The translations under genes and the position numbers were made by a program. The notes under the pieces are model-generated. The model saw nothing but the letters and a program-made list of their open reading frames with translations, was not told where the DNA came from and did no database searches. Source: Adhaeribacter rhizoryzae (GTDB taxonomy: Bacteria; Bacteroidota; Bacteroidia; Cytophagales; Hymenobacteraceae). From it: 64,000 nt of DNA. Location: NCBI RefSeq assembly GCF_008629685.1, contig NZ_VWSF01000017.1, positions 62,001 through 126,000 of the forward strand, written 5' to 3'. Each line of letters begins with the position of its first letter. Position 1 is the stretch's first letter. Below, one piece after another: positions 32,272 to 63,199 of this stretch.

Positions 32272-32897
32272 ACAAGCTAACTATTTAGTGCAGGAATAAA
32301 GTGTATTTAATATAGTTAAAATTAGAATAATTAATAATATTTTAATAAAAAAAAATTTTACCACTTAAAAATCGAAAGTCTAATTGTAACAAGTTTTATC
32401 TATAAATCTTAATCTCTTTAATATCTCAGCTGCAAGGAGTGGATTTTTTCTATTATTAGTAAAGCTCTTATTATTCTTATAAATTGCTTTTATTGTGAAT
32501 AATATGTTAAATAGAAAATCAAATTTTTGCCTATAAACTAGTTGATATCGTAAACTGATGAAGCATTTTTGTAGACGATTAATCAAGCTAATTCTCATGG
32601 GATATGTGCTAGTCTAACTAATGATGCCGTGTAAACCAACCTATATTAAATTTAAAGTGGAGCCTTAGTTGATGTTAAATTAATTCGGGTTTTGCCAGAC
32701 TAGAGATATTTTTAACGGGTTTACTAAAGCCGCAAAATACAAGCCTTTTTAACAGAAGGTGCGGATACGTATTAGGCTGCTCAAGGCCTGCGATTAAATT
32801 GTGTCCTAAAAAAGAAGCATATATTTGCCGCCGCACCAAACTGCCGGGGCTAATCTCCGTAAGGTGATCCGGCAAACAAACCGACACAAATTAAAAT
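32272..32897. other. AT-rich region ahead of the permuted glycosidase gene
   Basis: About 625 bp, with 32290-32650 markedly AT-rich. A 72-codon minus-strand ATG frame at 32380-32598 encodes a basic, hydrophobic peptide with AT-biased codons, and another at 32675-32887 has mixed composition; neither is credible enough to call. I translated the + strand just upstream of 32898 and found no remnant of the missing half of the glycosidase barrel. The promoter for the operon starting at 32898 must lie here. Confidence 0.45.
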
Positions 32898-33782
32898 ATG
32901 ATCGAAGCAGTTAAGTTTTGGAATGAACCTAATAATAAATCGCATTGGGCTTTTGAAATTGACCCGGAATGGCAAATATTTGGGAACATGGTAAAATTAG
33001 CGGCCGCCGCCGTTAAAGCCGAAAATCCAGGTATTTTAAGGGTACTGGGTGGCATATCGCCCATAGACCCGCATTTTATTAAGAAACTAGAAAATCACGG
33101 CGCCCTCGAAAATTTAGATGCCGTGGCTGTACATGGCTTTCCGTTAGATTGGAACCTGTGGCAAATACACGAGTGGCCCGATAAAATTGCCGAAATTGAA
33201 GCAGTAACCAATTTGCCGGTGTGGGTTACCGAAGTAGGTATTTCGAGCTTTGGGGCCGAAGAAGTGCAGGAGTTTGGCTTGCGCCGGACAGCCGAATTAT
33301 TATTGGGCCGTGTGGACCGGGCGCTTTGGTACAGCTTGTACGATTTACCCCGGAACTGGGAAGCAACTACCCGCCACCGCGAAGCCGAGGGCTCTTCTTA
33401 TTACCGCCATTTTCACATGGGCTTGCTGCGCGAAGATGGCACCCCTAAACTAGCGTTAAAGCATTTCTCAGATTATACCCCGGAGTTTGGTATTTGCCAG
33501 TGGTTTCATTTTGAAGATCACCGCCTCGACAATGCAATAGACTGGCTCCGGAAATTAGGCGTTAAACGTTTGCGCACCGGCTTAAGCTGGGCCGATTGGT
33601 TACGACCGGATGCCGACAAATGGTTTGACCACGTAATGAAAAAGCTGGAAGAATTTGATTTAACCGTTACTTTTTGCTTTACGCCCGAATCCAGGGGTAT
33701 ACAGCCGCACCATACCTCGCCGCCCCAAAATATTGAGGAATTTGCCGATTTCTGCGTAACCATGATGCGCCGTTATGCTTAA
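32898..33782 (+). CDS. Clan-A glycosidase-like protein with circularly permuted order of barrel halves
   Basis: 294 residues. Residues 1-193 match residues ~121-303 of the glycosidase domain in the fusion protein at 56605 (F-W-N-E-P-N with acid-base Glu10; V-W-V-T-E-V-G-I-S with nucleophile Glu112; shared G-G-I-S-P-I-D-P-H and A-V-H-G-F-P). Residues ~197-294 match the fusion protein's residues 18-118 (L-G-V-K-R-L-R-T-G-L-S-W-A-D-W; T-S-P-P). So the C-terminal half comes first and the cut falls just before the strand carrying W-N-E-P-N. An in-frame TAA six bases upstream of the ATG fixes the N-terminus. Both catalytic Glu are kept. It starts a probable two-gene unit with a GT9-like gene 57 bp downstream. 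Substrate unknown; beta-xylosidase-like is a family guess. Confidence 0.82.
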   Translation: MIEAVKFWNEPNNKSHWAFEIDPEWQIFGNMVKLAAAAVKAENPGILRVLGGISPIDPHFIKKLENHGALENLDAVAVHGFPLDWNLWQIHEWPDKIAEIEAVTNLPVWVTEVGISSFGAEEVQEFGLRRTAELLLGRVDRALWYSLYDLPRNWEATTRHREAEGSSYYRHFHMGLLREDGTPKLALKHFSDYTPEFGICQWFHFEDHRLDNAIDWLRKLGVKRLRTGLSWADWLRPDADKWFDHVMKKLEEFDLTVTFCFTPESRGIQPHHTSPPQNIEEFADFCVTMMRRYA

Positions 33783-33839: not shown

Positions 33840-34784
33840 ATGAGCCAGGATAATCAGGAAGACTCGTCAGATTTTTGGATAAGGAAGATGCGGCAAGGGG
33901 CTTTTGCAGAAGCATGGCAATTTAGCGATAAGGTACTGGCATCGAGGGCAGGTAAACCGTGCTGGCATTGGCCGCGGCATTTTCAATATATTTGGGATGG
34001 CCGTTCGCTGGAAGGAAAGCGCGTGCTGGTACGCTGCTACCATGGTTTAGGCGATACTATTCAGTTTATCCGCTACGCGCCACTACTAAAAGCAATGGCG
34101 GCTAAAGTTATTGTTTGGGCACAGGAGCCACTTATTCCTTTGCTGGAAACTGTTGCGGGAATTGACGAAATATTGCCGCTGCACGATGGTACACCGGAAG
34201 CAGATTACGAGGCAGATGTAGAAATAATGGAGTTGCCGCACATCTTCCGGACTACCGTGGCTACTATTCCTCGGCAAATTCCGTATTTGCACGTTGCACC
34301 GCGGCCACTTGCACCTGCAAACAAGCAAATCTCAGTTGGGCTGGTCTGGAAACCGGGAGATTGGGCACCGCACCGCTCTATTCCGTTCGATTACCTGGCA
34401 CCCTTAGCCAATATTAAAGGCATCAATCTCTATATTCTCCAAGCCGATGCCCAAGAGGCCGGTTGGCAGGACGGTTTTGGCATTAACCCTGGCGCGTTTA
34501 ATTTGTATGAGTTTGCCCGAGTAATAAAGGGTTTAGATTTGTTAATATCGGTAGATTCAATGCCGGTGCATCTGGCGGGCGCGCTAGGGGTACCCGTTTG
34601 GACTTTGCTGCACGCCGAAGCTGATTGGCGGTGGATGGAAGATAGAGAAGACAGCCCCTGGTACCCAACCATGCGGCTTTTCCGGCAAGCACAAGCCGGC
34701 GATTGGGAAAGCCTGATTTTGCGGGTAGCAGGTGAGCTGGAGAACTTGGTTCAAACCAAAACCCTGGCGTTATTGCCGAAGTAA
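33840..34784 (+). CDS. GT9-like (ADP-heptose-transferase-type) glycosyltransferase
   Basis: 314 residues with GT-B features. A short N-terminal helical part precedes G-L-G-D-T-I-Q-F-I-R-Y-A-P-L near residue 63 (the classic first-domain loop). The C-terminal domain has V-G-L-V-W-K-P-G near 163 and the donor-binding stretch I-S-V-D-S-M-P-V-H-L-A-G-A-L-G near 237. This type often occurs next to TPR domains, which are short or absent here. It lies 57 bp after the permuted glycosidase and before a bidirectional terminator, so these two genes share a transcript. The acceptor is unknown. Confidence 0.82.
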   Translation: MSQDNQEDSSDFWIRKMRQGAFAEAWQFSDKVLASRAGKPCWHWPRHFQYIWDGRSLEGKRVLVRCYHGLGDTIQFIRYAPLLKAMAAKVIVWAQEPLIPLLETVAGIDEILPLHDGTPEADYEADVEIMELPHIFRTTVATIPRQIPYLHVAPRPLAPANKQISVGLVWKPGDWAPHRSIPFDYLAPLANIKGINLYILQADAQEAGWQDGFGINPGAFNLYEFARVIKGLDLLISVDSMPVHLAGALGVPVWTLLHAEADWRWMEDREDSPWYPTMRLFRQAQAGDWESLILRVAGELENLVQTKTLALLPK

Positions 34785-34810: not shown

Positions 34811-34842
34811 AAAAGGCAGGATTTATTCCTGCCTTTTGTTTA
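34811..34842. terminator. Bidirectional terminator between convergent glycan genes
   Basis: Arms AAAAGGCAGGA (34811-34821) and TCCTGCCTTTT (34827-34837) pair perfectly, with A's left and T's right. It overlaps the stop codon of the minus-strand FrhB-like gene. Confidence 0.88.
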
Positions 34843-36225
34843 TCCTTTTAATTCGCCAAACCGCTTTCGCATTTCGCTGAACTTGCCTTGGTGATAAGCT
34901 AAACCATGATAAACGGCGGCTACCATGCGGGCCCATTTAAAATATAATTCGGGTTTCTGCAGGAGGCGGGCAAACGAAAATACGCGGTGGCTGCCAGCCG
35001 AAATAAAACTACGCATCCGGTAAATTGTTTTCCGGTGTTTGGCCACCGTTTCCGCATCTGGTTTTACGCGCTTACAGGGCTGTACACCTTTGCGGGGCCA
35101 GGTAAGGCGGTATGCCAGGCCTTCGCGGCGTTGCCGGAAACCAGCCGCCTGCGTTTGCTCCACAAATTTCTGGTCTACGGTTTCGAGTTGTAAACGGCCT
35201 TCTTGTATAGCGTTCTCCACTAATTCCTCCACCACGGTTGAGCGAACTACAACCACGTTGGTGCCTTTGCCATCCGAGGAATACGGTTCTACCCAGGCAT
35301 CACCAAACGAAATATCGGCCGTTTCGGCCACTACATCGTCGCAGAAGTTACAAGCCGAATTCATGTAAAAGCCTGCTCCCCAGTCGCCATCTTTTAAATG
35401 CCACCAGTCGCGGTTAATAGTACTGCCGTCGCGCAAGGTAAGCTGGGCATTATACCAGTTGGCCGGGCGGTTTGGATCTTTGTGCCGGAATTCAACCTGC
35501 TCAATCTGGTGTACCGGCACCTTCATTTGCCAGGCAAAGCTCTCAACAAACCGGGCACTTTTCATGTGGCCGCAAAACAAACCCAAGGTAAACCGGATTC
35601 GTTCGCGAAACAGCGGATCTTCGTTGCGGAGCAATTGTACGGCTTTAATAAAACAAGGCACCCCAACCACCGCATACCGGCCCGGCACTTCCCGGATAGT
35701 TTGCAATATTTCGGATAACTCAATTGGGTAATACCTGGATTTGGCGCCTTCCTGAACTTGCGCTACGGTGCGCGAAATACGGTAACGAAAATACCGGCCT
35801 TCTTTTTGCGGTTCTTTGGTGGCAATTACATGGGCTACGCCATCAATTAAGCCCTGCCGTAATAATTCGGTAGCTACCCAGGTAACCATGCCACCGGAGC
35901 TGCCCTGCAAGCGATATTCTTCTTCGGCTACATAACCCACGTAAGCGGTTTGGAAGCGCCCAATGGCGGCATCCTGGTGTTTCGCTAATGGGTATAAATT
36001 AGTAGCCAGATAATCTTCGTTTTTAGCCGCCGGCGAAAACGGGCAGGTACGGGTAAAACTATCGGAAGGCCGCCGGTACCAGGCTGGTACGCCACTGGGT
36101 TTTAACTCGCCGTAAGCATCAAAGGCCATGTGGGTATCGGGTAAATTGGCCTGCGCCACGCAACTTCCACAGCCAATGCACAAACCAGAAGTAACAATAT
36201 CTTTCGGACTTAGCGGCTCTGTCAT
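34840..36225 (-). CDS. FrhB-like flavo-iron-sulfur protein (coenzyme F420 hydrogenase/dehydrogenase beta-subunit family)
   Basis: 461 residues. An N-terminal ferredoxin-like part has C-I-G-C-G-S-C (residues ~17-23) and C-P-F-S-P. The FrhB N- and C-domains follow, with Q-G-S-S-G-G-M-V near 108, G-V-P-C-F-I-K-A near 197 and a late cluster C-N-F-C-D-D-V-V-A-E with D-I-S-F-G-D-A-W. FrhB relatives reduce or oxidise deazaflavin/FAD-linked substrates; in glycan loci they commonly accompany polysaccharide pyruvyl transferases, role not settled. Its ATG overlaps the end of the pyruvyl transferase gene by 4 bp (ATGA), so translation is coupled. Confidence 0.88.
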   Translation of the reverse strand: MTEPLSPKDIVTSGLCIGCGSCVAQANLPDTHMAFDAYGELKPSGVPAWYRRPSDSFTRTCPFSPAAKNEDYLATNLYPLAKHQDAAIGRFQTAYVGYVAEEEYRLQGSSGGMVTWVATELLRQGLIDGVAHVIATKEPQKEGRYFRYRISRTVAQVQEGAKSRYYPIELSEILQTIREVPGRYAVVGVPCFIKAVQLLRNEDPLFRERIRFTLGLFCGHMKSARFVESFAWQMKVPVHQIEQVEFRHKDPNRPANWYNAQLTLRDGSTINRDWWHLKDGDWGAGFYMNSACNFCDDVVAETADISFGDAWVEPYSSDGKGTNVVVVRSTVVEELVENAIQEGRLQLETVDQKFVEQTQAAGFRQRREGLAYRLTWPRKGVQPCKRVKPDAETVAKHRKTIYRMRSFISAGSHRVFSFARLLQKPELYFKWARMVAAVYHGLAYHQGKFSEMRKRFGELKG

Positions 36226-37370
36226 GCGAATTGCAGTTGTTTTGTACCCAGCGCCCGATCGAGGTAGGTGTTAGAAGTTTTGCGCAGGCGCTCTATTTTC
36301 TGGGTAATTTCCTGGTCCAGCGGTTCGTTTAAACGGGCGCGGTAAATGTCCGAAGGGGTACCTTCCGGCAGCAAATGCTTTTCGCCGCCAATTTTAGTCA
36401 TTAAACCTTGCAATTTGTGCCGGCGGTAAGGCGAAGATTCACACACAAAAGGCCGGGCATTGCGCAAAGCAAAAACGCACCCGTGAAAAAAGTTAGTAGC
36501 CACGGCTTCGGCTTGCGCCATAAAATGAGCAAAATCGTGCGGGTCGGCGGTAATCCATTGTTCGTCGGCCCAATCGTTGCGGTAACCAATGCTAATGAGC
36601 GGCAATTGGCGGCTATCGGCCCAGTTCCGGATTTCGCGGGCAAAAGATTCGGAAAAATTATGTCCGTAAACCGCTACGTACGGTTTAGTTAAGTTTTCCA
36701 AATTTCTGGCATCCGGTAAAACCGGGAATTGCAAACAAGGGTCCAGCACCATTTCGGGCTCAAAACCAAGCGCATTTTTAATAATATTTTGGGAATTTTC
36801 GTCCCGAACAGAAATTAAATCAAACTTCCGCAATTTTTCGGCCCAGGTTGGTTCCATGCCCCAGGTAGCATCGTAATTACCAAAGCTGGCGGCGTAAGAA
36901 ATTAGCTTCTGGGTTTTCAGGCCATCGCCGTAAAACAACGAGCAGCCGCCAAACCACGGGTGCGATAAATTCCAAACTTCGTCGCTGCCCACTACCACCA
37001 AATCGTAATTATCCATAGCTGCCGGATTGTTTAAGGCAAAACGGTTAGATAGAGGTAGGGTAGGAAAAAGGCGGAAAAATTTAAGCGTTTTTTCGCGGTA
37101 AAGCGCATAATCTGATTTAGGAACCCGGGTAGGTAAAACGGGTTGCAAGGCGCAGGTCCATTCGGCCTGGTTTACCTGGTCCGAGTCGTGGTCAAGAATT
37201 TCGGCCTGGTGCCCGCGTGCCTGTAAACCTTCGGCCAGGCAACGCGCCTGCCAGTAACTGCCATAATTAATGCACCTATGAAAGGTTAATACCCCAATTT
37301 TTAAGGAATTATTTTTACTTGTTTGCTCCAATGTATTTCGGAATAAATTTATTAGCTGTAAGTGAACCAA
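36222..37370 (-). CDS. Polysaccharide pyruvyl transferase (CsaB/WcaK-like)
   Basis: Up to 382 residues. The N-terminal domain has the family start K-I-G-V-L-T-F-H-R-C-I-N-Y-G-S-Y-W-Q-A, then D-L-V-V-V-G-S-D-E-V-W-N, and the C-terminal half has A-V-Y-G-H-N-F, D-P-H-D-F and A-T-N-F-F-H-G-C-V-F-A-L. It would transfer pyruvate from phosphoenolpyruvate to a sugar as a ketal. No in-frame ATG exists: the longest frame starts with TTG at 37370, and a second TTG at 37331 (codon 14) leaves ten fewer extra residues before the conserved K-I-G-V-L. The start is therefore uncertain. Leads the FrhB-like gene in a two-gene operon. Confidence 0.85.
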   Translation of the reverse strand: MVHLQLINLFRNTLEQTSKNNSLKIGVLTFHRCINYGSYWQARCLAEGLQARGHQAEILDHDSDQVNQAEWTCALQPVLPTRVPKSDYALYREKTLKFFRLFPTLPLSNRFALNNPAAMDNYDLVVVGSDEVWNLSHPWFGGCSLFYGDGLKTQKLISYAASFGNYDATWGMEPTWAEKLRKFDLISVRDENSQNIIKNALGFEPEMVLDPCLQFPVLPDARNLENLTKPYVAVYGHNFSESFAREIRNWADSRQLPLISIGYRNDWADEQWITADPHDFAHFMAQAEAVATNFFHGCVFALRNARPFVCESSPYRRHKLQGLMTKIGGEKHLLPEGTPSDIYRARLNEPLDQEITQKIERLRKTSNTYLDRALGTKQLQFA

Positions 37371-37627: not shown

Positions 37628-38230
37628 ATGACCAAGTTTCTTTTGATTCGGCACGCCACCACCGATTCGGTTGGCAAACGATTGAGCGGCCGCATGCCGG
37701 GTGTTTCTTTAAATATAGAAGGGCAGGCACAGGCACAGAAACTAGCCCAGCGGCTCGCCGGCGCGCCCATTGCCGCAATTTACAGCAGCCCTTTGGAGCG
37801 GACTTTACAAACGGCCCAGCCCATTGCCGCAATATTAAATTTGCAACCCCAAACAGACGAAAGTTTTCTCGAAATGAATTTTGGGGAATGGACCAATGCC
37901 GATTTCAAGGAATTAGCCAACGACCAGCAATTTAAATATTTTAATTATTTCCGGAGCAGCGCGCGCATTCCGGGCGGCGAGCTGATGCTGGAAGCCCAAA
38001 CCCGGATTGTTTCGGGACTTATAAAATTAGCCCAGCAACATCCCAACGAAACTGTGGCTGTGGTAAGCCACTCCGATTTAATAAAAGCTGCCATTGCTTA
38101 TTTTGCCGGCATTCACCTGGATATGTTTCAACGCCTCGAAATCAGCCCGGCTTCAATTAGTATTATTCAGCTTTACCCAGAAACAGCCCAAATACTTTTA
38201 GTAAACGATACCGGCGGGCTTACTTTTTAA
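37628..38230 (+). CDS. Histidine phosphatase family protein (phosphoglycerate-mutase-like)
   Basis: 200 residues. The catalytic R-H-A-T motif is at the start (F-L-L-I-R-H-A-T-T-D), with Y-S-S-P-L-E-R-T-L-Q-T-A near 55, the acid/base Glu in F-L-E-M-N-F-G-E-W, and the second catalytic His in V-V-S-H-S-D. The usual N-terminal R-H-G is R-H-A. Substrate unknown; members dephosphorylate small sugar phosphates or phosphoproteins. Of interest, an inositol-phosphate synthase gene follows (after 438 bp) and would make a phosphate ester needing a phosphatase, but family specificity does not show this. Confidence 0.88.
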   Translation: MTKFLLIRHATTDSVGKRLSGRMPGVSLNIEGQAQAQKLAQRLAGAPIAAIYSSPLERTLQTAQPIAAILNLQPQTDESFLEMNFGEWTNADFKELANDQQFKYFNYFRSSARIPGGELMLEAQTRIVSGLIKLAQQHPNETVAVVSHSDLIKAAIAYFAGIHLDMFQRLEISPASISIIQLYPETAQILLVNDTGGLTF

Positions 38231-38668: not shown

Positions 38669-39994
38669 ATGCATAATACCATAGAAAAAGCAACAGGAAA
38701 GCTTGGTATCTTAACTCCTGGTTTAGGTGCGGTAGCTACTACGCTTATTGCCGGTGTAGAAGCCGTTAAGAAGAATCTGGCGCAACCCGTTGGTTCTTTA
38801 ACCCAAATGGGAAATATCCGGTTAGGAAAAAGAACCGAAAACCGCTTTCCTAAAATTAAAGATTTTGTGCCACTGGCCGACCTGAATGATATTGTTTTTG
38901 GAGGCTGGGATGTGTATAACGACAACGTGTTTGAAGCTGCCCTGAAGGCCAAGGTAATTGAGCCCATGATGTTGCACGCCGTTAAGTCGGAGCTGGAAGC
39001 TATTAAGCCCATGAAAGCGGTTTTTGACCGTTCTTATGTATCTAACCTCGATGGCGACCACATTAAGCAAGCCGCTACCAAAGCCGACCTGGCTAAAATG
39101 GTAATGGACGACATCGAGAATTTTAAAGAAGCCAACGATTGCGCGCGCATGGTAGTGGTTTGGTGCGGCTCTACCGAAATATATTTAGAGCCATCGGCGG
39201 TACACGAAACCCTGGAAAGCTTTGAAGAAGGTTTACAGAATAATGATCCGGCCATTGCGCCTTCCATGATATACGCCTATGCCGCCATTAAACTGGGCGT
39301 TCCGTTTATGAACGGCGCACCTAATTTAACCTGCGATATTCCGGCCCTGATTGAACTGGCTAAACAAACCGGTACGCCAATTGGTGGTAAAGATTTTAAA
39401 ACTGGCCAAACCCTCATGAAAACCATTCTGGCTCCTGGCCTGCAGGCCAGGGCTTTGGGTGTAAGAGGTTGGTTTTCTTCTAATATTCTGGGTAACCGCG
39501 ATGGTTATGTGCTGGACCATCCGGAAAATTTTAAAACCAAAGAAGTATCTAAACTAAGCGTGCTGGAAGATATTTTTCAGCCCGAAATGAACCCGGAACT
39601 GTACGGCGAAATCTACCATAAAGTAAGAATTAACTATTATCCGCCGGCCGGCGATAACAAAGAAAGCTGGGATAATATTGATATTTTTGGCTGGATGGGT
39701 TACCAAATGCAAATAAAGGTAAACTTCTTGTGCCGCGATTCTATTCTGGCCGCTCCGCTGGTATTGGATTTAGCCTTGTTCAGCGATTTGGCCAAAAGAG
39801 CCGGCATGTCGGGCATTCAGGAGTGGTTATCTTTTTACTTTAAATCGCCCCAAACAGCCCCCGGCCTTAATCCTGAGCACGATATTTTTAAGCAATTAAT
39901 TAAAATGCAGAATACCCTGCGCCACATGATGGGTGAGGACCTTATTACGCATCTGGGTTTAGAATATTACCAGGATTTAACCGAAGCGTTGTAA
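38669..39994 (+). CDS. myo-Inositol-1-phosphate (inositol-3-phosphate) synthase
   Basis: 441 residues. NAD-binding loop L-T-P-G-L-G-A-V-A-T-T near residue 15; further family motifs are D-I-V-F-G-G-W-D-V-Y near 70, V-V-V-W-C-G-S-T-E near 163, F-M-N-G-A-P-N-L-T near 212, G-G-K-D-F-K-T-G-Q-T near 239 and S-N-I-L-G-N-R-D-G near 271. It turns glucose-6-phosphate into inositol-phosphate in an NAD-dependent cyclisation. Single gene ending in a strong terminator. In this group of bacteria inositol serves phospholipid or glycoconjugate synthesis. Confidence 0.95.
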   Translation: MHNTIEKATGKLGILTPGLGAVATTLIAGVEAVKKNLAQPVGSLTQMGNIRLGKRTENRFPKIKDFVPLADLNDIVFGGWDVYNDNVFEAALKAKVIEPMMLHAVKSELEAIKPMKAVFDRSYVSNLDGDHIKQAATKADLAKMVMDDIENFKEANDCARMVVVWCGSTEIYLEPSAVHETLESFEEGLQNNDPAIAPSMIYAYAAIKLGVPFMNGAPNLTCDIPALIELAKQTGTPIGGKDFKTGQTLMKTILAPGLQARALGVRGWFSSNILGNRDGYVLDHPENFKTKEVSKLSVLEDIFQPEMNPELYGEIYHKVRINYYPPAGDNKESWDNIDIFGWMGYQMQIKVNFLCRDSILAAPLVLDLALFSDLAKRAGMSGIQEWLSFYFKSPQTAPGLNPEHDIFKQLIKMQNTLRHMMGEDLITHLGLEYYQDLTEAL

Positions 39995-45756: not shown

Positions 45757-47076
45757 TTACCAGATATTCAGAATCATTGCTGCGCCTAGCGCCGTGCCTT
45801 GCGAGTTCTCCGAAATTACAATATTTAAATCGGGGAAATTAGCTTGCAGCAGGTGCATGAATATTTTGTTTTTACTAAAGCCGCCATCAACCAGTAAATA
45901 TTCGAAATTACTTAGGTTGTACTCACCGGCCAGGCGAATAGCTTCTACCTGGGGTTCGGTAATTTTTTGCATGAGCACGTGGTAAGCTTCTTCGTACGTT
46001 TCGAACTGCGTTAGATCTAACTGAATGTTAAGCTTGGTGGTTTTAGTGGCCGTTAAGGTGCTATCGTCCGGCGTAACAGGTTCATCGGGTTGGGGCTTGC
46101 TATAAGCCGGATTGTAAGTAACTATTTTAAAATAATCGGCGGGTTTGTTGTAGTGGCTGGCCAATTTTTTTACCTGCTCTTCGTGCTCGTTGCCAATAAA
46201 CATTCTGGACGCTTTAACCCGCTGACCGTTGTAGGTTAAAAAATTTAAACAATCCTGCTGCAGTTCTTCTTTGGTTAAATTTTCTTTGGCAAACGGATTT
46301 AAAGTAATGCCCCAAGTACCCGTAGAAAGCAATAAAAATGGATCGGTATATTTATACAAATAAGGAATCAGGGCCGAAGAACTGTCGTGTAACCCAATGC
46401 CGGCCGGTATTCTTTTCTTCCGGAAAGTGGTACCGAAGGTATTGCTTTGTTCGGTAATGCGGGGCAGTAAGCTAATAATATTTTCCTCGTAAACCCAGTT
46501 GTGATAGCATTTGGTTTCGAAATTCCAGAGGCCGGTGTGGCAGCCAATGCTGGTGTATTCCGATACCATATTGCCCGAGAACAGGAAGGAAACATACTGC
46601 GGCAAATGGAGCGAGGTTGTTATTTTGGCGAAAAGTTCCGGCTTCTTGTATTTCAGCCAGTACAATTGCAACCCAGAATTGAGCATGCCCAAGTTAGGCG
46701 AAGCCGTAACGGTAGCAAAAGTTAATTTATCGCCGTAACGGTCGTAAAACTGTTTTTCTAAATCTTCGGGGTACGGTTTTAAGTAGGAGTAAAGGGGCGT
46801 AGCGGGTTTAAGTTGCGCATTTAAATGCACCATGCTGGCACCGTAAGTGGTAAAGTTTACCCCAACTACATCAAACCGTTCGTCGGCTTCCAGTTCTTTC
46901 CAGGTAGCCAGCAGCCAGGCGGTAAGCCTATCTACATCTTCGCAGGGATAACCGTCATCATCCAGGATTTCGGGAAACCGTGCTTCAATTTCATGAATAA
47001 TATTAAAATAGTGGTCAAAGAGAATACACTTTTTATTTGTTTTGCCAATATCGAAAACTGCCACACAAGATACCAT
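45757..47076 (-). CDS. FGGY-family sugar kinase (L-rhamnulokinase of the rhamnose operon)
   Basis: About 439 residues from ATG 47076; an in-frame TTG at 47082 adds two residues. N-terminal phosphate loop V-F-D-I-G-K-T-N-K-K, the adenosine/phosphate motif S-T-G-T-W-G-I-T-L-N near 255, and a C-terminal L-V-D-G-G-F-S-K-N with G-T-A-L-G-A-A. The FGGY kinase would phosphorylate L-rhamnulose to rhamnulose-1-phosphate, fitting an operon whose other members are rhamnose isomerase, aldolase-dehydrogenase and transporter. Fuculokinase-like specificity cannot be excluded from the sequence. Confidence 0.88.
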   Translation of the reverse strand: MVSCVAVFDIGKTNKKCILFDHYFNIIHEIEARFPEILDDDGYPCEDVDRLTAWLLATWKELEADERFDVVGVNFTTYGASMVHLNAQLKPATPLYSYLKPYPEDLEKQFYDRYGDKLTFATVTASPNLGMLNSGLQLYWLKYKKPELFAKITTSLHLPQYVSFLFSGNMVSEYTSIGCHTGLWNFETKCYHNWVYEENIISLLPRITEQSNTFGTTFRKKRIPAGIGLHDSSSALIPYLYKYTDPFLLLSTGTWGITLNPFAKENLTKEELQQDCLNFLTYNGQRVKASRMFIGNEHEEQVKKLASHYNKPADYFKIVTYNPAYSKPQPDEPVTPDDSTLTATKTTKLNIQLDLTQFETYEEAYHVLMQKITEPQVEAIRLAGEYNLSNFEYLLVDGGFSKNKIFMHLLQANFPDLNIVISENSQGTALGAAMILNIW

Positions 47077-47128
47077 ACGCAATCGGGTGTTTAAAAATAG
47101 TGGATAATTAAGAACGGGATATTAATGG

Positions 47129-47170
47129 CAGCAGCCTCAGGCACCTGGGTGTCTGGGGCTGCTGTTTAAA
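47129..47170. other. Intercistronic hairpin in the rhamnose operon
   Basis: CAGCAGCCTCAGGCACC and GGTGTCTGGGGCTGCTG pair over 17 bp with two positions that are G-U wobbles in + strand RNA but A-C mismatches in operon-sense RNA. T-rich sequence follows on the + side. It lies between the isomerase and kinase genes and may modulate relative expression. Confidence 0.55.
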
Positions 47171-47201
47171 TTTAACTTTAATATAGAACTTTGCCGGAAA
47201 A

Positions 47202-55448: not shown

Positions 55449-56567
55449 ATGAAGAAAAAAGTGTTAATTACCGGCGGAGCGGGATTTATTGGCTCTCACT
55501 TAGCCGATGAGTTACTTAATTTTGGTTACGAAGTCCGGGCCTTGGACAATTTATCGGAGCAAGTGCATGGCAAAAATTGTGAACGCCCGGAATATCTGAA
55601 TCCCGAAGTAGAGTTAATGGTTGGCGATGTGCGGGATAAAAAAATGGTGGAGCAGGCGTTGGAAGGTGTAGATGCGGTATTTCATTTGGCTGCTATGGTG
55701 GGCGTGGGGCAGAGCATGTACGAAATAAAAGAATATACCGATGTAAATAATACCGGTACCGCTGTTTTACTCGAAGCTTTAGCTAAGAATCCGGTGCAGA
55801 AACTGGTAGTAGCTTCCAGCATGAGTATTTACGGCGAAGGTTTGTACCAGAATATTGCGGGTAAATCTATTATTGGTTCCGAGCGGCCCTTGGAGCAACT
55901 AAAAGCCGGACAGTGGGAAGTAATGGATGAAGCTGGCAACGAGTTGCAGCCACTACCAACGCCGGAATCCAAAACACCTTGCTTATCTTCGGTTTACGCC
56001 TTATCTAAATACGACCAGGAACGCATGAGTTTAATTGTAGGCCGGGCTTATAATATTCCGACGGTGGCGATGCGGTTCTTTAATGTGTATGGTACGCGCC
56101 AGGCATTATCAAACCCGTATACGGGCGTACTGGCCATATTTGCTTCCCGGTTCCTGAACGATAATCCGCCCATGATATTTGAAGATGGCAACCAGCAGCG
56201 TGACTTTGTTCACGTGCGCGATGTGGCTTTGGCTTGCCGTTTGGCGCTGGAAACGCCCGAAGCCGATGGACAGGTATTTAACGTGGGCAGCGGCAATAAT
56301 TACACCATTACCGAAATAGCCGAAAGATTAGCAGAGGTCATAAACAAAGGACATCTGAAACCGCAGATTACTGGTAAGTACCGGGTGGGCGATATCCGGC
56401 ATTGCTACGCCGATATTTCTTTGGCTCAGAAAATACTTGGTTTTTATCCGCAGGTAGATTTTAACAGTGGTTTATCCGAAATGGCAGAATGGCTGGAAGG
56501 CCAGATTGCTTACGACCGGGTAAATGAGGCCAGTGCCGAGTTAGCGGCGCGCGGCCTGACGGTTTAA
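55449..56567 (+). CDS. NAD-dependent sugar epimerase/dehydratase (extended SDR)
   Basis: 372 residues. Glycine-rich NAD loop T-G-G-A-G-F-I-G-S-H at residues ~8-17, catalytic Tyr-Lys in V-Y-A-L-S-K-Y near 180, F-F-N-V-Y-G-T-R near 208 and N-V-G-S-G-N-N-Y-T near 276. It resembles dTDP-rhamnose 4-epimerase-like and UDP-glucose 4-epimerase-like enzymes that alter an NDP-sugar. First gene of the right-hand glycan operon; the fusion gene follows after 37 bp. Confidence 0.9.
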   Translation: MKKKVLITGGAGFIGSHLADELLNFGYEVRALDNLSEQVHGKNCERPEYLNPEVELMVGDVRDKKMVEQALEGVDAVFHLAAMVGVGQSMYEIKEYTDVNNTGTAVLLEALAKNPVQKLVVASSMSIYGEGLYQNIAGKSIIGSERPLEQLKAGQWEVMDEAGNELQPLPTPESKTPCLSSVYALSKYDQERMSLIVGRAYNIPTVAMRFFNVYGTRQALSNPYTGVLAIFASRFLNDNPPMIFEDGNQQRDFVHVRDVALACRLALETPEADGQVFNVGSGNNYTITEIAERLAEVINKGHLKPQITGKYRVGDIRHCYADISLAQKILGFYPQVDFNSGLSEMAEWLEGQIAYDRVNEASAELAARGLTV

Positions 56568-56604: not shown

Positions 56605-58665
56605 ATGTCAGAGACATTAATCCATAACAACACAACAAGCAACCGGCAACCAACTGTTGGGTTAGTTCAGAATTTTAAACCCGGCGACCAGGCGCTGGTA
56701 GAAAAAGTGCTGGCCGATGTAAAAGCATTAGGCGTAAAAGAACTCCGGACCAATATTTCCTGGGCCGAATACGTTACGCCTGCCGGCAAACAATGGTATA
56801 ACTGGTTAATTCCGCACCTAGCCAAAGCAGTTAAAATATTGCCTTGCTTTTGCGATACACCAACTAATTTAGCTTTATCACCCCGTCCATCATCGCCGCC
56901 AAAAGACCCAAAGGCTTTCGCCGATTTTCTGCAAATCTTCCTCACCGATTTAGGCAAGCATTTCGAGTGGGTAGAACTCTGGAACGAACCCAATAAAAAA
57001 GAAGCGTACGATTACACCCTTGATAAATCCTGGTCGGCGTTTGCCGCAATGATTAGCGCAGCCGCAAAACTCGCCAAAGCACACGGCAAAAAAACAGTGC
57101 TAGGCGGCATGAGCCCCATCGACCCGCATTGGCTGCAATTAATGTTCGAGCAAAACGCCATGCAAAATATCGATGCTGTTGGGGTACATGGCTTTCCGGA
57201 TGTATACGACCAGCAATGGGAAGGTTGGGATGAAAATATTAACAAAGTAAAATCAGTTCTGGCGGCCAATAATTCTCCGGCCGAAATCTGGATTACTGAG
57301 GCTGGTTTTTCTACGTGGCAGCACGATGAATACAAGCAACTAGAAGAGTTCCGGCAGGTACTTAAAGCCGATGTAACGAAAGTTTTCTGGAGTAATGTGC
57401 TGGACACTAATACGGATTCTTTTTCGGAAAGTAGTTTGTACGCCGATGAGCGGGAATATTATTTCGGTCTGAAACGAGCTGATAGCAGTCCTAAATTATT
57501 ATACCGGTTATGGGCTGATCATGGCTTAGCTGGAGTCTATAAATTTTCCTGTATCAAGCGTAAAACCTCTTTTAACCCTTCCGAAAAATATTCCTTAATT
57601 ACCGGCGGCGCCGGTTTTGTGGGCACCAACCTGGCCAAACGTTTACTCGAAGAAGGCAAGCGCGTTTTAATTCTGGATAATTTATCACGCCCCGGCGTAG
57701 AGCGAAATGTGCAATGGTTGGAAGATAATTACGGCGACCGGCTGGAAGTTTATGTGGGCGATATGCGAAATTTGCAAATGGTAAAAATGCTCATGCGAAA
57801 TGCCAGCGAGGTTTACCATTTTGCCGCGCAGGTAGCCGTTACCACTTCCCTGGATTTCCCAATCAACGATTTTGACATTAATGCCCGCGGTATTGTAAAC
57901 GTGCTCGAAGCCATCCGGACCCAGGATAATCCACCGCCACTGGTATTTACTTCTACCAATAAAGTTTACGGCGGCCTCGAAGATTTGCAGTTTATTGCGG
58001 ATGGTTCCCGCTATAATCCTTCCGATAAAAATATTCTAAAAAACGGCATTTCGGAAGAACGCCCCCTTGATTTTCATAGCCCATACGGCTGTTCCAAAGG
58101 TGCCGCTGACCAGTACGTGATTGATTATGCCCGCACGTATGGCATCCAGGCGGTGGTATTCCGGATGAGTTGCATTTACGGTCCGCACCAGTACGGCACC
58201 GAAGACCAGGGCTGGGTAGCACATTTTGCTATTCGGGCCATCGAAAACAAGGCCATTAGCATTTACGGCGATGGCAAACAAGTACGCGATGTCTTGTTTG
58301 TTGAAGATTTGGTAGATGCTTTCGTGCTGGCGCAAAAACACATGCCCGAAATATCGGGGCAAGCCTTTAATATTGGCGGTGGCCCGGAAAATACCACCAG
58401 TTTATTAGAATTACTCCAAACCATCGGCGAGTTTCAGGGCCATAAAATTCCGCTGAATTTTGATAACTGGCGGCCCGGCGACCAGCATTATTACGTGTCG
58501 GACATTCGCAAATTAAGGAAGGCGACCGGCTGGTACCCGAAGCACTCGGTGCAGGAAGGCGTTTCTAAATTATTCCGCTGGCTCTGCGAAGCCCGCGGTT
58601 TGGAATTACCCGCCGACTTTTCGATGGTAGAAGAAAAAGAACACACCAAAGTAGCCTTAGCCTAA
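56605..58665 (+). CDS. Fusion of clan-A glycosidase-like domain and CDP-paratose-2-epimerase-like domain
   Basis: 686 residues. Residues ~17-310 are a glycosidase-like barrel (L-G-V-K-E-L-R-T-N-I-S-W-A-E-Y near 42-56, W-N-E-P-N with Glu128, H-G-F-P near 195, W-I-T-E-A-G-F-S with Glu232). Residues ~328-660 are an extended SDR with T-G-G-A-G-F-V-G-T-N, S-T-N-K-V-Y-G-G, Y-G-C-S-K-G-A-A-D-Q (Tyr-Lys) and G-D-Q-H-Y-Y-V-S-D, most like CDP-paratose/tyvelose 2-epimerase. Combining a hydrolase-type fold with sugar epimerisation in one chain is unusual and shows a shared substrate or product. The stop overlaps the next start (TAATG). Confidence 0.87.
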   Translation: MSETLIHNNTTSNRQPTVGLVQNFKPGDQALVEKVLADVKALGVKELRTNISWAEYVTPAGKQWYNWLIPHLAKAVKILPCFCDTPTNLALSPRPSSPPKDPKAFADFLQIFLTDLGKHFEWVELWNEPNKKEAYDYTLDKSWSAFAAMISAAAKLAKAHGKKTVLGGMSPIDPHWLQLMFEQNAMQNIDAVGVHGFPDVYDQQWEGWDENINKVKSVLAANNSPAEIWITEAGFSTWQHDEYKQLEEFRQVLKADVTKVFWSNVLDTNTDSFSESSLYADEREYYFGLKRADSSPKLLYRLWADHGLAGVYKFSCIKRKTSFNPSEKYSLITGGAGFVGTNLAKRLLEEGKRVLILDNLSRPGVERNVQWLEDNYGDRLEVYVGDMRNLQMVKMLMRNASEVYHFAAQVAVTTSLDFPINDFDINARGIVNVLEAIRTQDNPPPLVFTSTNKVYGGLEDLQFIADGSRYNPSDKNILKNGISEERPLDFHSPYGCSKGAADQYVIDYARTYGIQAVVFRMSCIYGPHQYGTEDQGWVAHFAIRAIENKAISIYGDGKQVRDVLFVEDLVDAFVLAQKHMPEISGQAFNIGGGPENTTSLLELLQTIGEFQGHKIPLNFDNWRPGDQHYYVSDIRKLRKATGWYPKHSVQEGVSKLFRWLCEARGLELPADFSMVEEKEHTKVALA

Positions 58666-59672
58666 TGAATCCGGATTTAGTAGCAGAAAAAACAATACAA
58701 GATAAAAAAGTAACACTCATGCGAGCAGCCGTTATAACTGCTCCGCAAACCGTAGAAATACAAGAAGTCGCCTTGCCGAAACCCGGACCCACGCAGGTGC
58801 GGATAAAAATGGAAGGCTGCGGCTTATGTGCCTCCAATATTCCGGTGTGGCAAGGACGGGAATGGTTTAGTTATCCAATTCCGGCCGGCAATCCCGGCCA
58901 CGAAGGCTGGGGCGTGGTAGATGCTGTTGGCGCAGAGGTAAAAACCATTAAAATTGGCGACCGTGTAGCCGCGCTTTCTTATCATGCCTACGCTGAGTAT
59001 GATTTGGCCGAAGCCGATGCCGTAGTACAAATCCCCGAAATATTGGCCGGTGTGCCTTTTCCCGGCGAACCTTTGGGCTGCGCCATAAATATTTTTAAAC
59101 GTTCCGATATTCAGGCCGGGCAAACGGTAGCTATTTTGGGCATTGGGTTTTTAGGCGCTTTGCTGGTGCAACTGGCTAAAGAAGCCGGAGCCCGCGTTAT
59201 TGCATTGTCCCAACGGGAATATTCCTTAAACGTAGCCGCCGAGACCGGTGCCGATGAATTAATAAAGCTCGACGACCATTACCAGATTATCGAAAAAGTG
59301 AAAGCGCTTACTGGGGGCAAATTCTGCGAACGCGTAATTGAATGTACCGGAAAAGAATGGCCGCTAAACTTGTCCGGCGAATTAACCGCCGAACGGGGAA
59401 AATTAATTATTGCCGGCTTCCACCAGGATGGCATGCGCTCGGTGAATGTGCAGCTTTGGAACTGGCGCGGCCTGGATGTAATTAACGCCCACGAGCGCGA
59501 CCCCAAAATTTACCTGAGTGGTATTGCCGAAGCCGTAAAAGCCGTTACAACCGGTCGCCTGAATCCGCAACCTTTATATACCCACGAATTTTCTCTGGAA
59601 AATATCGCCGAAGCTTTCCAGTTGCTAAATAATCGCCCGGATGGGTTTATGAAAGCTTTGATAAAGTTTTAA
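58665..59672 (+). CDS. Zinc-binding alcohol/sugar dehydrogenase (MDR family)
   Basis: 335 residues. GroES-like domain with catalytic zinc region G-C-G-L-C-A-S-N-I, and P-G-H-E-G-W-G near 74, then a Rossmann fold with G-I-G-F-L-G-A-L near 166. The four-Cys structural zinc cluster is not obvious, as in sorbitol/threonine-dehydrogenase-type relatives. The enzyme probably oxidises a sugar or cyclitol alcohol with NAD(P). Its ATG overlaps the fusion gene's stop (TAATG); an ATG at 58719, just before M-R-A-A-V-I-T-A, is another possible start that better matches the family length. Confidence 0.88.
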   Translation: MNPDLVAEKTIQDKKVTLMRAAVITAPQTVEIQEVALPKPGPTQVRIKMEGCGLCASNIPVWQGREWFSYPIPAGNPGHEGWGVVDAVGAEVKTIKIGDRVAALSYHAYAEYDLAEADAVVQIPEILAGVPFPGEPLGCAINIFKRSDIQAGQTVAILGIGFLGALLVQLAKEAGARVIALSQREYSLNVAAETGADELIKLDDHYQIIEKVKALTGGKFCERVIECTGKEWPLNLSGELTAERGKLIIAGFHQDGMRSVNVQLWNWRGLDVINAHERDPKIYLSGIAEAVKAVTTGRLNPQPLYTHEFSLENIAEAFQLLNNRPDGFMKALIKF

Positions 59673-59906: not shown

Positions 59907-60941
59907 ATGCCGGAAGAATTAGTACTACCAAACACCTCATCAATAGAAAGTAAAAATATTAAACCTCGCTTGGGCTTTTTGGGCGTGGGCTGGATTGGCC
60001 GCAACCGCATGGAAGTAATTGCCAACCATCAGGCCGGAGAAATTACCTTTATCTCAGACACCGTACCCCAGAATACCGAAGCTGCCTTACAAGCCGTACC
60101 AACTGCGCAATCAGTTAATGCCCTATCCGACATGCTCACCGAAGACACGGACGGGGTGGTGATTGCTACCCCCAGTGCTTTTCATGCGGAGCAAAGCATT
60201 CAGGTCCTGCAAGCCGGTAAAGCCGTTTTCTGCCAGAAGCCTTTGGGCCGGAATTTAGAAGAAACGCAACAGGTAGTGGAAGCTGCCCGCCAGGCTAATA
60301 AATTATTGGGCGTAGATTTATCTTATCGGTTTACCAAAGCCATGCAAGCTGTGTACCAGGTGGTGCAATCCGGCGAGTTGGGCAATATTTACGCGGTGGA
60401 GCTTACTTTTCATAACGCGTATGGTCCCGATAAACCCTGGTTTTACGATCCTAAATTATCGGGCGGCGGCTGCGTTATCGATCTGGGTGTGCACCTGGTA
60501 GATTTAGCCTTGTGGACTTTAAACTTTCCGGAAGTAGAAAAGGTAACCAGCAGCTTGTTTTCGAAAGGACATAAAATAACCAATACCCAGGATACGGTAG
60601 AAGATTATGCCAATGCCAGCATAGCATTAGCCAGCGGCACGCACGTAGCTTTAAGTTGCTCCTGGAATTTACCGGCCGGACAAGAAGCTATTATTAGTGC
60701 AATATTTTACGGTACACAAGGCGGCGTAGCGTTTAAAAATATTAACGGTTCTTTCTACGATTTTGTGGCCGAGCGCTTTTACGGTACCCGCACCGAAACC
60801 CTAACTGCACCACCCGACGATTGGTCGGGTCGGGCCGGTGTGGTTTGGGCAAACCGGGTAGCTGCCGGCGAAAAATATAGCCCCGAAGCGGAAGAATTTG
60901 TGAAAGTAGCGGCTGTGTTGGATAAGATTTATGGAAGATAG
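59907..60941 (+). CDS. Gfo/Idh/MocA-family oxidoreductase
   Basis: 344 residues. N-terminal NAD(P) fold (L-G-F-L-G-V-G-W-I-G-R-N-R near 27-38), the conserved K-P-L-G-R-N motif (C-Q-K-P-L near 112), and the C-terminal sheet domain with G-G-G-C-V-I-D-L-G-V-H-L-V-D (catalytic His) near 190-203. Family members act on sugars, inositols and their amino derivatives. It starts 235 bp after the dehydrogenase gene, across a palindromic element, and its end overlaps the next gene by 11 bp. Confidence 0.9.
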   Translation: MPEELVLPNTSSIESKNIKPRLGFLGVGWIGRNRMEVIANHQAGEITFISDTVPQNTEAALQAVPTAQSVNALSDMLTEDTDGVVIATPSAFHAEQSIQVLQAGKAVFCQKPLGRNLEETQQVVEAARQANKLLGVDLSYRFTKAMQAVYQVVQSGELGNIYAVELTFHNAYGPDKPWFYDPKLSGGGCVIDLGVHLVDLALWTLNFPEVEKVTSSLFSKGHKITNTQDTVEDYANASIALASGTHVALSCSWNLPAGQEAIISAIFYGTQGGVAFKNINGSFYDFVAERFYGTRTETLTAPPDDWSGRAGVVWANRVAAGEKYSPEAEEFVKVAAVLDKIYGR

Positions 60942-62061
60942 AAATTCGTTACCTACCCGTATTCTCATGACTGCCGATACGATGGGCGGGGTTTGGACTT
61001 ACACGCTAGAATTAATAAAAGCGCTGGCGCCTTTTAACACCAAGGTGGCCTTAGCTACTATGGGCAATAACCTAAGTTTGCGGCAACGCGAACAGGTTGC
61101 TGCTTTGCCCCAGCTTACGCTTTATGAAAGTAATTTTAAACTGGAGTGGATGGATAACCCTTGGGAAGATTTGCAAGCCGCCGGCGAGTGGTTGTTACAA
61201 ATAAACCAGGAATTTAAGCCCGATATTATTCACCTGAACAATTTTTGCCATGGCAACCTTAACTGGGGCAAACCGGTGGTAATGGTGGCGCATTCCTGCG
61301 TGAGTTCCTGGTGGCAAGCCGTAAACGACGAACCGGTACCGGCGGAATGGCAATATTACCGAAAAGCCGTAGCCCAAGGTTTGCAAGCCGCCGATTTAGT
61401 AGTGGCACCAACGGCGGCTATGCTGCAGGAGGCTCAGGTACTTTACGGCCCTTTTAAGCAAAGCCAGATAATTTATAATGGGCAGGATACCGCTAAATTT
61501 AAATATGCGCACAAAGAGCCATTTGTATTTAGCATGGGCCGGGTCTGGGACGAAGCCAAAAATATCTCTTTGCTGGCCCAGGTAGGGGCCGAATTGGATT
61601 GGCCGGTATATATTGCCGGCGAGGCGCGCCACCCGGTAACCGGCGAAACCCTGGAACTGCCCAACGTGCATTTTTTAGGAATACTCTCCGAATCCGAAAT
61701 AATTAATTGGCTAAGCCGGGCCGCTATATTTTGTTTGCCGGTTAAATACGAGCCTTTTGGTTTAGCTATTCTGGAAGCAGCTTTATCGGGTTGTGCCCTC
61801 GTGGTTGGCAATATTGCCAGTCAGCGGGAAATCTGGGGTAAAGCGGCTACTTACGTTAACCCAAATAATGCCGGCGAGTTAGCTACGGCTGTTACCAAAT
61901 TAATTCAGGACGAATTTATCCGGAATATTATGAGTTTCCGGGCCATGCAACAAGGGCTGGGCTATAATATTCAGCAAACCGCTTACTATTACCGACAGGC
62001 TTATGGTCAGTTGCTGGGCGTAACCAACCAGAAAAAATCACCAGAAAAAATATTAATCTGA
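60931..62061 (+). CDS. GT4-type glycosyltransferase
   Basis: 376 residues, GT-B fold. The N-terminal domain begins T-A-D-T-M-G-G-V-W-T-Y (acceptor-side glycine loop), with H-S-C-V-S-S-W-W near 112. The C-terminal donor domain has V-F-S-M-G-R-V-W-D-E-A-K-N near 197 and the nucleotide-sugar binding motif E-P-F-G-L-A-I-L-E-A-A-L-S-G-C-A-L near 271-287. It starts within the end of the oxidoreductase gene (11-bp overlap) and precedes another transferase by 7 bp. Acceptor and sugar unknown. Confidence 0.9.
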   Translation: MEDRNSLPTRILMTADTMGGVWTYTLELIKALAPFNTKVALATMGNNLSLRQREQVAALPQLTLYESNFKLEWMDNPWEDLQAAGEWLLQINQEFKPDIIHLNNFCHGNLNWGKPVVMVAHSCVSSWWQAVNDEPVPAEWQYYRKAVAQGLQAADLVVAPTAAMLQEAQVLYGPFKQSQIIYNGQDTAKFKYAHKEPFVFSMGRVWDEAKNISLLAQVGAELDWPVYIAGEARHPVTGETLELPNVHFLGILSESEIINWLSRAAIFCLPVKYEPFGLAILEAALSGCALVVGNIASQREIWGKAATYVNPNNAGELATAVTKLIQDEFIRNIMSFRAMQQGLGYNIQQTAYYYRQAYGQLLGVTNQKKSPEKILI

Positions 62062-62068: not shown

Positions 62069-63199
62069 ATGAAAATAGTAATGTTTTACCATTCCCTGCT
62101 TTCGGACTGGAACCACGGCAACGCGCACTTTTTGCGGGGCATTGTGCAGGAATTAAAGCACCGGGGCCACGAGGTGCAGGTGTATGAACCAGAGCAAGGC
62201 TGGAGTTTACAAAACCTGGTAAACGACTACGGAAAAGAAAAAATCCAGGAATTGCAAGAATATTATCCCGGCCTGGAAACCAATTTTTATAACCTGGAAA
62301 GCCTGAACCTGGATGCTGTTTTAAATAATGCCGATTTGGTATTGGTACACGAATGGAACGACCACGACTTAGTTAAGCAGATAGGCCAGCACCGGGTAAC
62401 TAATAATTACAAGTTAATATTCCACGACACCCACCACCGGGCCGTTACCGAAAAAGCCAGCATGGCGCAGTACGACCTGCAACACTACGATGGCGTGTTG
62501 GCTTTTGGTGAGGTTATCCAGCAAATATATTTAAAAGAAAACTGGACCCAGAAAGCCTGGACCTGGCACGAGGCCGCCGATGATTCGGTCTTTTATCCGC
62601 ACGAAAAAGGTGAAGTGGAAGGTGATTTGGTTTGGGTTGGGAACTGGGGCGATGAAGAACGAACCGCTGAACTCCACGAATTTTTAATAAATCCGGTAAA
62701 AGAATTAGGCCTAAAAGCGAAAATATACGGCGTGCGCTACCCGGAACATGCGCTAAAATCGTTGGCCGAGGCAGGTATAGAATATGGTGGTTGGCTACCC
62801 AATTACAAAGCACCAGAAGTTTTTGCCAAATACAAAGTTACGATGCATGTACCGCGTCGGCCTTACGTAGAAGCTTTACCCGGCATTCCTACCATTCGCC
62901 CGTTTGAGGCCCTTAGTTGCGGCATTCCGTTAATATCTGCTCCGTGGGAAGATGCTGAAAATTTATTTACCCCCGGTCAGGATTTTTTAGTAGCTGGTAA
63001 CGGCGAAGAAATGAAAAAGCATCTCCTGACTATTTTAAATCAGCCCGAAAAGGCCGAAACATTAGTGCAAAATGGTTTAACTGTAATCCGCCAGCGCCAT
63101 ACGTGCCGGCATCGGGTAAACGAACTGGAGCAAGTTTGCGCTGAATTAGGTATCGATAAAACTAAAATTTTCCTGAACGAAGAAATAACTAATGAATAA
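62069..63199 (+). CDS. CgeB-like glycosyltransferase (first of two)
   Basis: 376 residues. The N-terminal half has H-G-N-A-H-F-L-R-G-I-V-Q-E-L with H-E-V-Q-V-Y-E-P-E, and F-H-D-T-H-H-R near 127. The C-terminal half contains L-V-W-V-G-N-W-G near 188 and the typical R-P-F-E-A-L-S-C-G-I-P-L-I-S-A-P-W near 277-293. These are features of CgeB/GT-B transferases, often with an N-terminal dedicated acceptor loop. The next gene overlaps by 8 bp and is a relative of it, suggesting duplication. Confidence 0.85.
   Translation: MKIVMFYHSLLSDWNHGNAHFLRGIVQELKHRGHEVQVYEPEQGWSLQNLVNDYGKEKIQELQEYYPGLETNFYNLESLNLDAVLNNADLVLVHEWNDHDLVKQIGQHRVTNNYKLIFHDTHHRAVTEKASMAQYDLQHYDGVLAFGEVIQQIYLKENWTQKAWTWHEAADDSVFYPHEKGEVEGDLVWVGNWGDEERTAELHEFLINPVKELGLKAKIYGVRYPEHALKSLAEAGIEYGGWLPNYKAPEVFAKYKVTMHVPRRPYVEALPGIPTIRPFEALSCGIPLISAPWEDAENLFTPGQDFLVAGNGEEMKKHLLTILNQPEKAETLVQNGLTVIRQRHTCRHRVNELEQVCAELGIDKTKIFLNEEITNE

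Follow-up and report, generated by a model that had tools for sequence, protein, structure and literature searches.

The window, by which we mean the whole stretch of DNA analysed here, comprises 64,000 nucleotides of Adhaeribacter rhizoryzae (assembly GCF_008629685.1, contig NZ_VWSF01000017.1, positions 62,001 to 126,000 of the forward strand). It holds an open reading frame for a 294-residue protein that begins with ATG, as first described in a sequence-only reading of this DNA; an in-frame TAA (32892-32894) precedes it with one intervening codon. The product resembles clan GH-A glycosidases with its parts in swapped order, and the surrounding genes form a locus whose second part, about 22 kb away, contains a related but unpermuted domain fused to an epimerase (Table 1). 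In plasmid records the permuted protein is annotated as a beta-xylosidase, a glycosyl hydrolase or a hypothetical protein. A TIGR04290 methyltransferase is encoded at contig positions 127500-128177, about 1.5 kb beyond the end of the window. Positions 45757-52092 of the window encode an FGGY kinase, a xylose-isomerase-like barrel, an aldolase/short-chain-dehydrogenase fusion and a RhaT symporter, presumably an L-rhamnose catabolism operon.

Table 1. Features of the locus (positions are those of the window).
Feature	Position	Strand	Basis
In-frame TAA; ATG one codon further on	32892..32894	+	
Permuted clan GH-A-like protein, 294 aa, ATG start, β4-β8 then β1-β3	32898..33782	+	
Residues 1-193, equivalent to the C-terminal part (β4-β8) of the unpermuted domain	32898..33476	+	BLASTP, rotation test
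Codon of E10, predicted acid/base Glu, just past β4 (WNE)	32925..32927	+	Role from PslG alignment
Codon of E112, predicted nucleophile Glu, β7 (WVTE)	33231..33233	+	Role from PslG alignment
Loop after β8, residues 157-169, largely invariant, pLDDT <50	33366..33404	+	
Residues 194-294, equivalent to the N-terminal part (β1-β3) of the unpermuted domain	33477..33779	+	BLASTP, rotation test
GT9-like (heptosyltransferase-like) protein, recurrent neighbour	33840..34784	+	
FrhB/FdhB-like protein, recurrent neighbour	34840..36225	-	
Polysaccharide pyruvyl transferase, recurrent neighbour	36222..37370	-	
Histidine phosphatase, recurrent neighbour	37628..38230	+	
Myo-inositol-1-phosphate synthase homologue, recurrent neighbour	38669..39994	+	
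NAD-dependent epimerase/dehydratase, opening the second part of the locus	55449..56567	+	
Unpermuted GH-A-like domain of the fusion, residues 1-320, Glu128 and Glu232 present	56605..57564	+	
Epimerase/dehydratase domain of the fusion; Pfam match begins at residue 331	57580..58665	+	
Zinc-binding dehydrogenase	58665..59672	+	
Gfo/Idh/MocA oxidoreductase	59907..60941	+	
GT4-type glycosyltransferase	60931..62061	+	
Glycosyltransferase	62069..63199	+	

Using BLASTP against the fusion protein encoded at 56605, residues 5-193 of the permuted protein aligned with fusion residues 123-306 (34% identity; E = 5e-26) and residues 191-285 with fusion residues 12-108 (33% identity; E = 4e-15), and the coordinates given for the two swapped alignments in the sequence-only reading proved correct to within a few residues. 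The C-terminal part scored 62 bits compared to 23 bits for the best of 200 shuffled sequences, 199 of which gave some match. When the window's own genome was searched, the permuted protein and the fusion, the latter in two pieces, were the only matches. We then scored all 294 rotations of the protein against a profile of seven unpermuted fused domains (that of the window and those of loci L015, L016, L022, L025, L041, and L076). The best rotation starts at residue 194 and aligns as a single stretch of 200.3 bits that covers positions 9-297 of the 311 in the profile and leaves one gap position at the point where residue 294 is joined to residue 1; unrotated, the protein matched in two swapped stretches of 111.1 and 76.5 bits, and the best stretch among 300 shuffled sequences reached 3.6 bits. 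A search of the sequences of solved structures gave a comparable picture. The GH39 enzyme PslG matched the unrotated protein in two weak swapped pieces (E = 9.4e-4), and only upon rotation did a near full-length, one-piece match arise (E = 2.2e-9; rotated residues 7-285 to chain residues 25-319). The unpermuted domain of the fusion had no PDB sequence match at E ≤1. The halves are thus swapped, nothing is lost at the join and the match extends over the whole length once the protein is rotated, as in a natural circular permutant. Together, these results confirm that the 294-residue open reading frame encodes a circular permutant of the epimerase-fused clan GH-A-like domain.

A scan of genome_contigs identified 539 stretches encoding a relative of the permuted protein, of which 80 loci were kept. 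The permuted order was found in one piece in all 80, with matches extending from query residues 1-290 to 1-294 at 69-96% identity, and the similar proteins beginning M-I-E-A-V-x-F-W-N-E-P-N-N that had earlier been mentioned for other bacteria therefore exist. Going by record titles, the same order occurs across about eight phyla: Pseudomonadota (30 loci), Bacteroidota (24), Acidobacteriota (7), Verrucomicrobiota (7), and Myxococcota (5), with one locus each in Actinomycetota, Chloroflexota, Armatimonadota, and Candidatus Binatota, and 3 unplaced; many of these records are MAGs, and single ones may be misnamed. The MAG titled Williamsia (Actinomycetota; L024) is probably such a misnamed bin, since the identity of its copy and its neighbours look like those of Bacteroidota. 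Within the window's own family (150 genomes), the permuted gene occurs in 21, of which 19 also have the fused domain and 2 do not; another 27 have the fused domain only and one has a decayed remnant. This remnant (L162; genome G128, contig 157) carries two stops, and its genome has no other match. In an even draw of 395 Bacteroidota genomes, the permuted gene was detected in the window's own genome alone (E ≤1e-6). The distribution of the permuted gene is wide but patchy. Two permuted copies are present in Segetibacter sp. 3557_3 (L020 and L031). Plasmids contributed 147 matching records, 97 of them at 60-80% identity; in a set of 50 of the 147 plasmid rows, 33 were single-piece permuted proteins at 63-70% identity, 16 were fusions matching in two or three pieces and one was a weak Methanomethylovorans match. 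A phage origin was considered and rejected: none of the 18 pattern matches in viral_contigs was a relative.

For a phylogenetic tree, we combined 22 of the 64 permuted rows, in rotated form, with 19 of the 59 unpermuted rows and six remote outgroup rows, on which the root rests. Permuted (support 99/96) and fused (98/98) forms came out as sister clades, and a long stem (1.69) leads to the shallow crown of the permuted clade. No permutation intermediate was seen among the 80 kept loci, and the 459 other stretches may include some. These observations fit best with a single ancient event and later spread, in which horizontal transfer probably took part. In five loci, tblastn alignments of the unpermuted domain continued upstream of the start. 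These extensions were considered as a possible relic of β1-β3, but they were poor, two of them passed through a stop, and we judged them to be noise.

The structure of the permuted protein was predicted with AlphaFold2 using 64 sequences (the window and 63 of the 80 kept loci). The model (pLDDT 88.3, pTM 0.88) is an eight-stranded (β/α)8 barrel with a helix after each strand, the strands comprising residues 2-7, 47-53, 75-80, 108-113, 142-144, 198-200, 224-230, and 254-260. The two halves folding as separate non-barrel units, the outcome that would have spoken against a permutation, was thus not predicted. For the unpermuted domain, AlphaFold with seven sequences only gave a model of pLDDT 68.8 and pTM 0.76 in which strands 1 to 8 span residues 17-21, 46-51, 77-82, 122-126, 163-167, 191-196, 227-233, and 259-263. 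Comparison of the two models places the cut between α3 and β4 and the new join between α8 and β1. The permuted chain does not follow the β1 to β8 order of clan GH-A and runs 4-8, 1-3 instead, making it, as modelled, a permuted variant of the clan rather than a regular member. In such barrels the α-to-β connections, where both the cut and the join are located, lie on the face opposite the active site; the permutation should therefore leave the catalytic face unchanged, with Glu10 and Glu112 in their places. Taken together, the rotation tests, the predicted barrel, the permuted order of all kept loci and the separate clades support the earlier suggestion of a natural, old and conserved permutation.

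Structure searches with the two models behaved differently. Foldseek with the unpermuted model returned PslG first (E = 1.1e-11), followed by many GH1 β-glucosidases, while the better-predicted permuted model had a best match of E = 3.9e-4 and retrieved mostly unrelated barrels. Enzymes of GH5, a clan GH-A family, appeared from rank 26 downward in the Foldseek list of the permuted model. VIA-align gave rows with Z scores of 11.8 to 13.9 spanning the whole chain; its top row was a de novo barrel, and a single GH5 enzyme appeared at rank 32. Weak matches in order-dependent comparisons are expected of a permutant and say nothing about its family.

Enzymes of clan GH-A carry the acid/base Glu, with an Asn before it, at the end of β4 and the nucleophile Glu at the end of β7. 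In the permuted protein, W8-N9-E10 comes directly after the chain's first strand, the equivalent of β4 in the alignment, and E112 is located in strand 108-113, three strands past β4, where the nucleophile of this clan is expected. The claim that both catalytic Glu are retained was well founded: E10 (WNEPNN) and E112 (WVTEVG) are invariant in 64/64 aligned permuted proteins, as is the Asn before the acid/base, and both Glu are also present in 20/20 permuted proteins from other genomes of the window's family. The Glu of PslG that align with this pair are at chain positions 139 and 250, which we infer to be the published E165 and E276 under one constant numbering offset. With thresholds of at least 97% of the 64 permuted rows and at least 90% of the 52 fused rows that keep both Glu, 39 positions count as conserved in permuted and fused forms alike, including W8, N9, E10, H79-G80-F81-P82, W109, E112, R226-T227, and S230-W231. 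At another 35 positions the permuted rows show no variation and differ from the residue most common in the fused rows; 10 of these positions fall in residues 154-172, around loop 157-169. This loop is poorly predicted (pLDDT <50) though largely invariant, and ordering only upon substrate binding would fit this behaviour.

Membership in a defined family was less clear. The Pfam model Glyco_hydro_cc (PF11790) scored 20.1 bits with the unrotated protein, below its curated cut-off of 21, and 21.0 bits with the rotated one. No GH39 model was among the Pfam matches at E ≤1, unrotated or rotated, where HMMER filters can drop weak matches, and no NCBIfam model matched the permuted protein at E ≤1. The alignment with PslG fits homology at the level of the clan and is no proof of membership in GH39. 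The permutation itself may explain why these proteins are poorly annotated, with Pfam below cut-off, NCBIfam empty and structure search favouring unrelated barrels.

The permuted gene lies in a conserved cluster that appears to build a sugar chain. Neighbours in the 80 kept loci, many of whose stretches end at a contig edge, include homologues of a histidine phosphatase (57 loci), myo-inositol-1-phosphate synthase (51), GT9-like proteins (43), glycosyltransferases (42), TIGR04290 methyltransferase (36), FrhB-like proteins (29), and polysaccharide pyruvyl transferase (29), as well as epimerases, zinc dehydrogenase and Gfo/Idh oxidoreductase. We scored inositol-phosphate synthase, TIGR04290 methyltransferase, FrhB, pyruvyltransferase, and the cluster glycosyltransferases, taking as references the window and two annotated permuted-gene loci. 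At least one of these neighbours was present in 55/56 full-length loci compared to 0/20 control stretches of equal length, the controls coming from one genome only. The sole full-length locus without the usual neighbours is L031. We also inspected 10 annotated plasmid regions, 4 with the permuted gene and 6 with the fusion (L102 and L133 lack annotation). Four glycosyltransferases and the TIGR04290 methyltransferase were found in 9/10, UDP-glucuronic acid decarboxylase in 6/10, and a TIGR04295 B12-binding radical SAM protein in 3/10. Five plasmid fusion clusters (L106 and L129-L132) lie near genes for DUF1003, ferritin-like proteins, manganese catalase, UdgX, ClpP, and sigma factors, genes of kinds frequently associated with surviving stress. 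Within the cluster gene runs examined, no gene was named as a flippase, polymerase or exporter, suggesting a small soluble glycan or glycoside as the likely product. In L103, a lipid A exporter is located to one side, among lipid A genes. These results point to an uncharacterised glycan cluster common to several bacterial phyla.

The unpermuted domain of the fusion is among the closest known counterparts of the permuted protein. Both share the catalytic pair, the conserved positions described above and related clusters, with a mean identity to the window protein of 33% (28-36% in 59 rows, over 235-285 aligned residues). The fused domain differs in its strand order (1-8), in its fusion to the epimerase, and in that catalytic Glu is lost in 7/59 proteins. 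In one genome (G009; L161) the fusion is split into two adjacent frames, for the glycosidase domain and the epimerase. In the window's family, loss was found in 5/19 genomes with the permuted gene compared to 0/27 without it (Fisher p = 0.0085, with genomes treated as independent though they are related). The nucleophile is lost in G003, G014, G024, G041, and G079, and the acid/base too in G003 and G041. Outside the family, loci L041 and L076, whose titles are not Bacteroidota, have also lost the nucleophile and have the permuted gene nearby. Both Glu are kept despite the presence of the permuted gene in 14/19 genomes, in four Dyadobacter loci and in L133 (a Rhizobium plasmid), and six further plasmid fused domains keep both. 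In all seven loss proteins the nucleophile has been replaced by Ala, encoded by GCC, GCG or GCT, and there are no stops. On a tree of the 59 fused domains built without the catalytic columns, Glu loss needs five changes, all in rows bearing the permuted gene. A relatedness-aware pair test, which scored the plasmid rows as unknown for carriage of the permuted gene even though the L133 record holds one, had 1.3 informative pairs on average, none opposing, where at least six would be needed; it therefore had no power and was not significant. The association of Glu loss with the permuted gene is suggestive only. The simplest reading is that the fused and permuted barrels overlap in function and that the permuted barrel is sufficient for catalysis; if so, the pattern would speak indirectly for activity of the permuted enzyme. 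More tentatively, the paired barrels could have divided the work, the permuted one keeping catalysis and the unpermuted one serving the epimerase as a module for sugar binding or transfer, which we regard as rather unlikely. Replacement of the nucleophile Glu by Ala is the kind of change that turns engineered glycosidases into non-hydrolysing glycosynthases. The loss of the acid/base Glu in 2 of the 7 proteins (G003 and G041) argues against the transfer version of this division.

The explanation that we consider likely is that the window protein arose by natural circular permutation of a clan GH-A-like glycosidase and edits the cluster glycan. From its sequence, we infer that it would be an active, retaining, cytosolic β-glycosidase, the location following from a chain that starts directly with β4 and leaves a signal peptide no room. 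The unpermuted ancestor, common to this protein and the epimerase-fused domain, would have been re-opened once between α3 and β4, and its old ends joined through the short α8-β1 connection. Duplication, fusion and trimming would be the simplest route, as in the model of circular permutation outlined in PMC3320104. The permuted enzyme may trim, edit or recycle an oligosaccharide or glycoside intermediate produced by the glycosyltransferases and nucleotide-sugar enzymes of the cluster, acting on its glycan as PslG is thought to act on Psl, with a function that would overlap that of the fused domain.

The main alternative is that the permuted barrel, its catalytic pair intact, would act in the cytosol as a transglycosidase and carry a glycosyl unit from one cluster intermediate to another instead of hydrolysing the bond. 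The gene is surrounded by biosynthetic genes, the permuted-barrel enzymes of GH70 are described as glucan-synthesising transglycosylases (PMC4919382), and the largely invariant loop could keep water from the active site. Sequence alone cannot separate hydrolases from transglycosidases in this clan, however, and the closest relative of known structure, PslG, is reported to be a retaining endo-β-glucosidase (PMC11912335). We give this alternative a minor share of probability. Much less probable is that the barrel binds sugar without catalysis and serves to regulate or scaffold the cluster enzymes. The fused paralogue is non-catalytic by sequence in some lineages, where binding alone may be selected, but the invariance of both Glu and of the Asn before the acid/base in the permuted proteins speaks against such a role. 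We attach equally little probability to a domain-swapped dimer in which the swapped halves exchange between chains to form the working unit; prediction of a monomer cannot exclude such an exchange, but the single-chain model (pTM 0.88) speaks against it. Finally, that the gene is a broken fragment or an assembly error of a tandem-domain protein has practically nothing in its favour apart from the odd order of its halves, and we rejected it because the permuted order occurs in one piece in every kept locus and in the 33 plasmid rows, in 49/80 loci no other start codon separates the start from the in-frame stop before it, an in-frame stop lies within 30 codons upstream in 45/80, the barrel is predicted by AlphaFold, and a second half-copy is found within the retrieved stretch in only 6/80, always as part of the separate unpermuted paralogue, so that this further outcome named beforehand as refuting was not borne out. 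The start codon in the 80 loci is ATG in 71 and GTG in 9, and a longer N-terminus is possible in the 31 with an upstream in-frame start.

Among known systems, PslG provides the precedent for the proposed hydrolase. It is a GH39 enzyme (PMC10485009) with solved structures (PDB 5bx9 and 4zn2), and its gene shares a transcript with those for Psl synthesis, its hydrolytic activity being described as important for Psl production (PMC9075953). Like the permuted protein, it is a glycosidase encoded within a polysaccharide biosynthesis cluster, and it matches the rotated protein over nearly its full length with both Glu motifs aligned. It differs in being unpermuted, remote in sequence and described as mainly located at the inner membrane, with some in the periplasm.

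Families GH70 and GH13 belong to clan GH-H. The GH70 barrel, related to that of GH13, is described as permuted and beginning with α3-β4 (PMC4919382), and the GH70 glucansucrases thus offer a natural permuted (β/α)8 barrel cut at almost the same place as the one reported here, where β4 comes first. They differ in clan and substrate class and are large multidomain enzymes, and the two permutations are separate, parallel and independent events. Other natural permutations described in carbohydrate enzymes are those of the Fibrobacter 1,3-1,4-β-glucanase, a jellyroll, and the CE4 domain of PgaB, a deacetylase, neither of which belongs to clan GH-A. Transaldolase B and class I aldolase, TIM barrels discussed in a study of non-sequential alignment (PMC2213659), are not glycosidases. 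Among the titles and abstract openings listed in searches of open-licence literature, none describes a permuted clan GH-A barrel or this cluster, and passages of a permutation-search preprint (PMC12667903) name no glycosidase. The occurrence of permuted and unpermuted forms in one locus makes the effects of connectivity on folding and catalysis comparable between natural paralogues. Natural permutation of a (β/α)8 glycoside-active enzyme is known from GH70, and the present protein adds a predicted example from clan GH-A.
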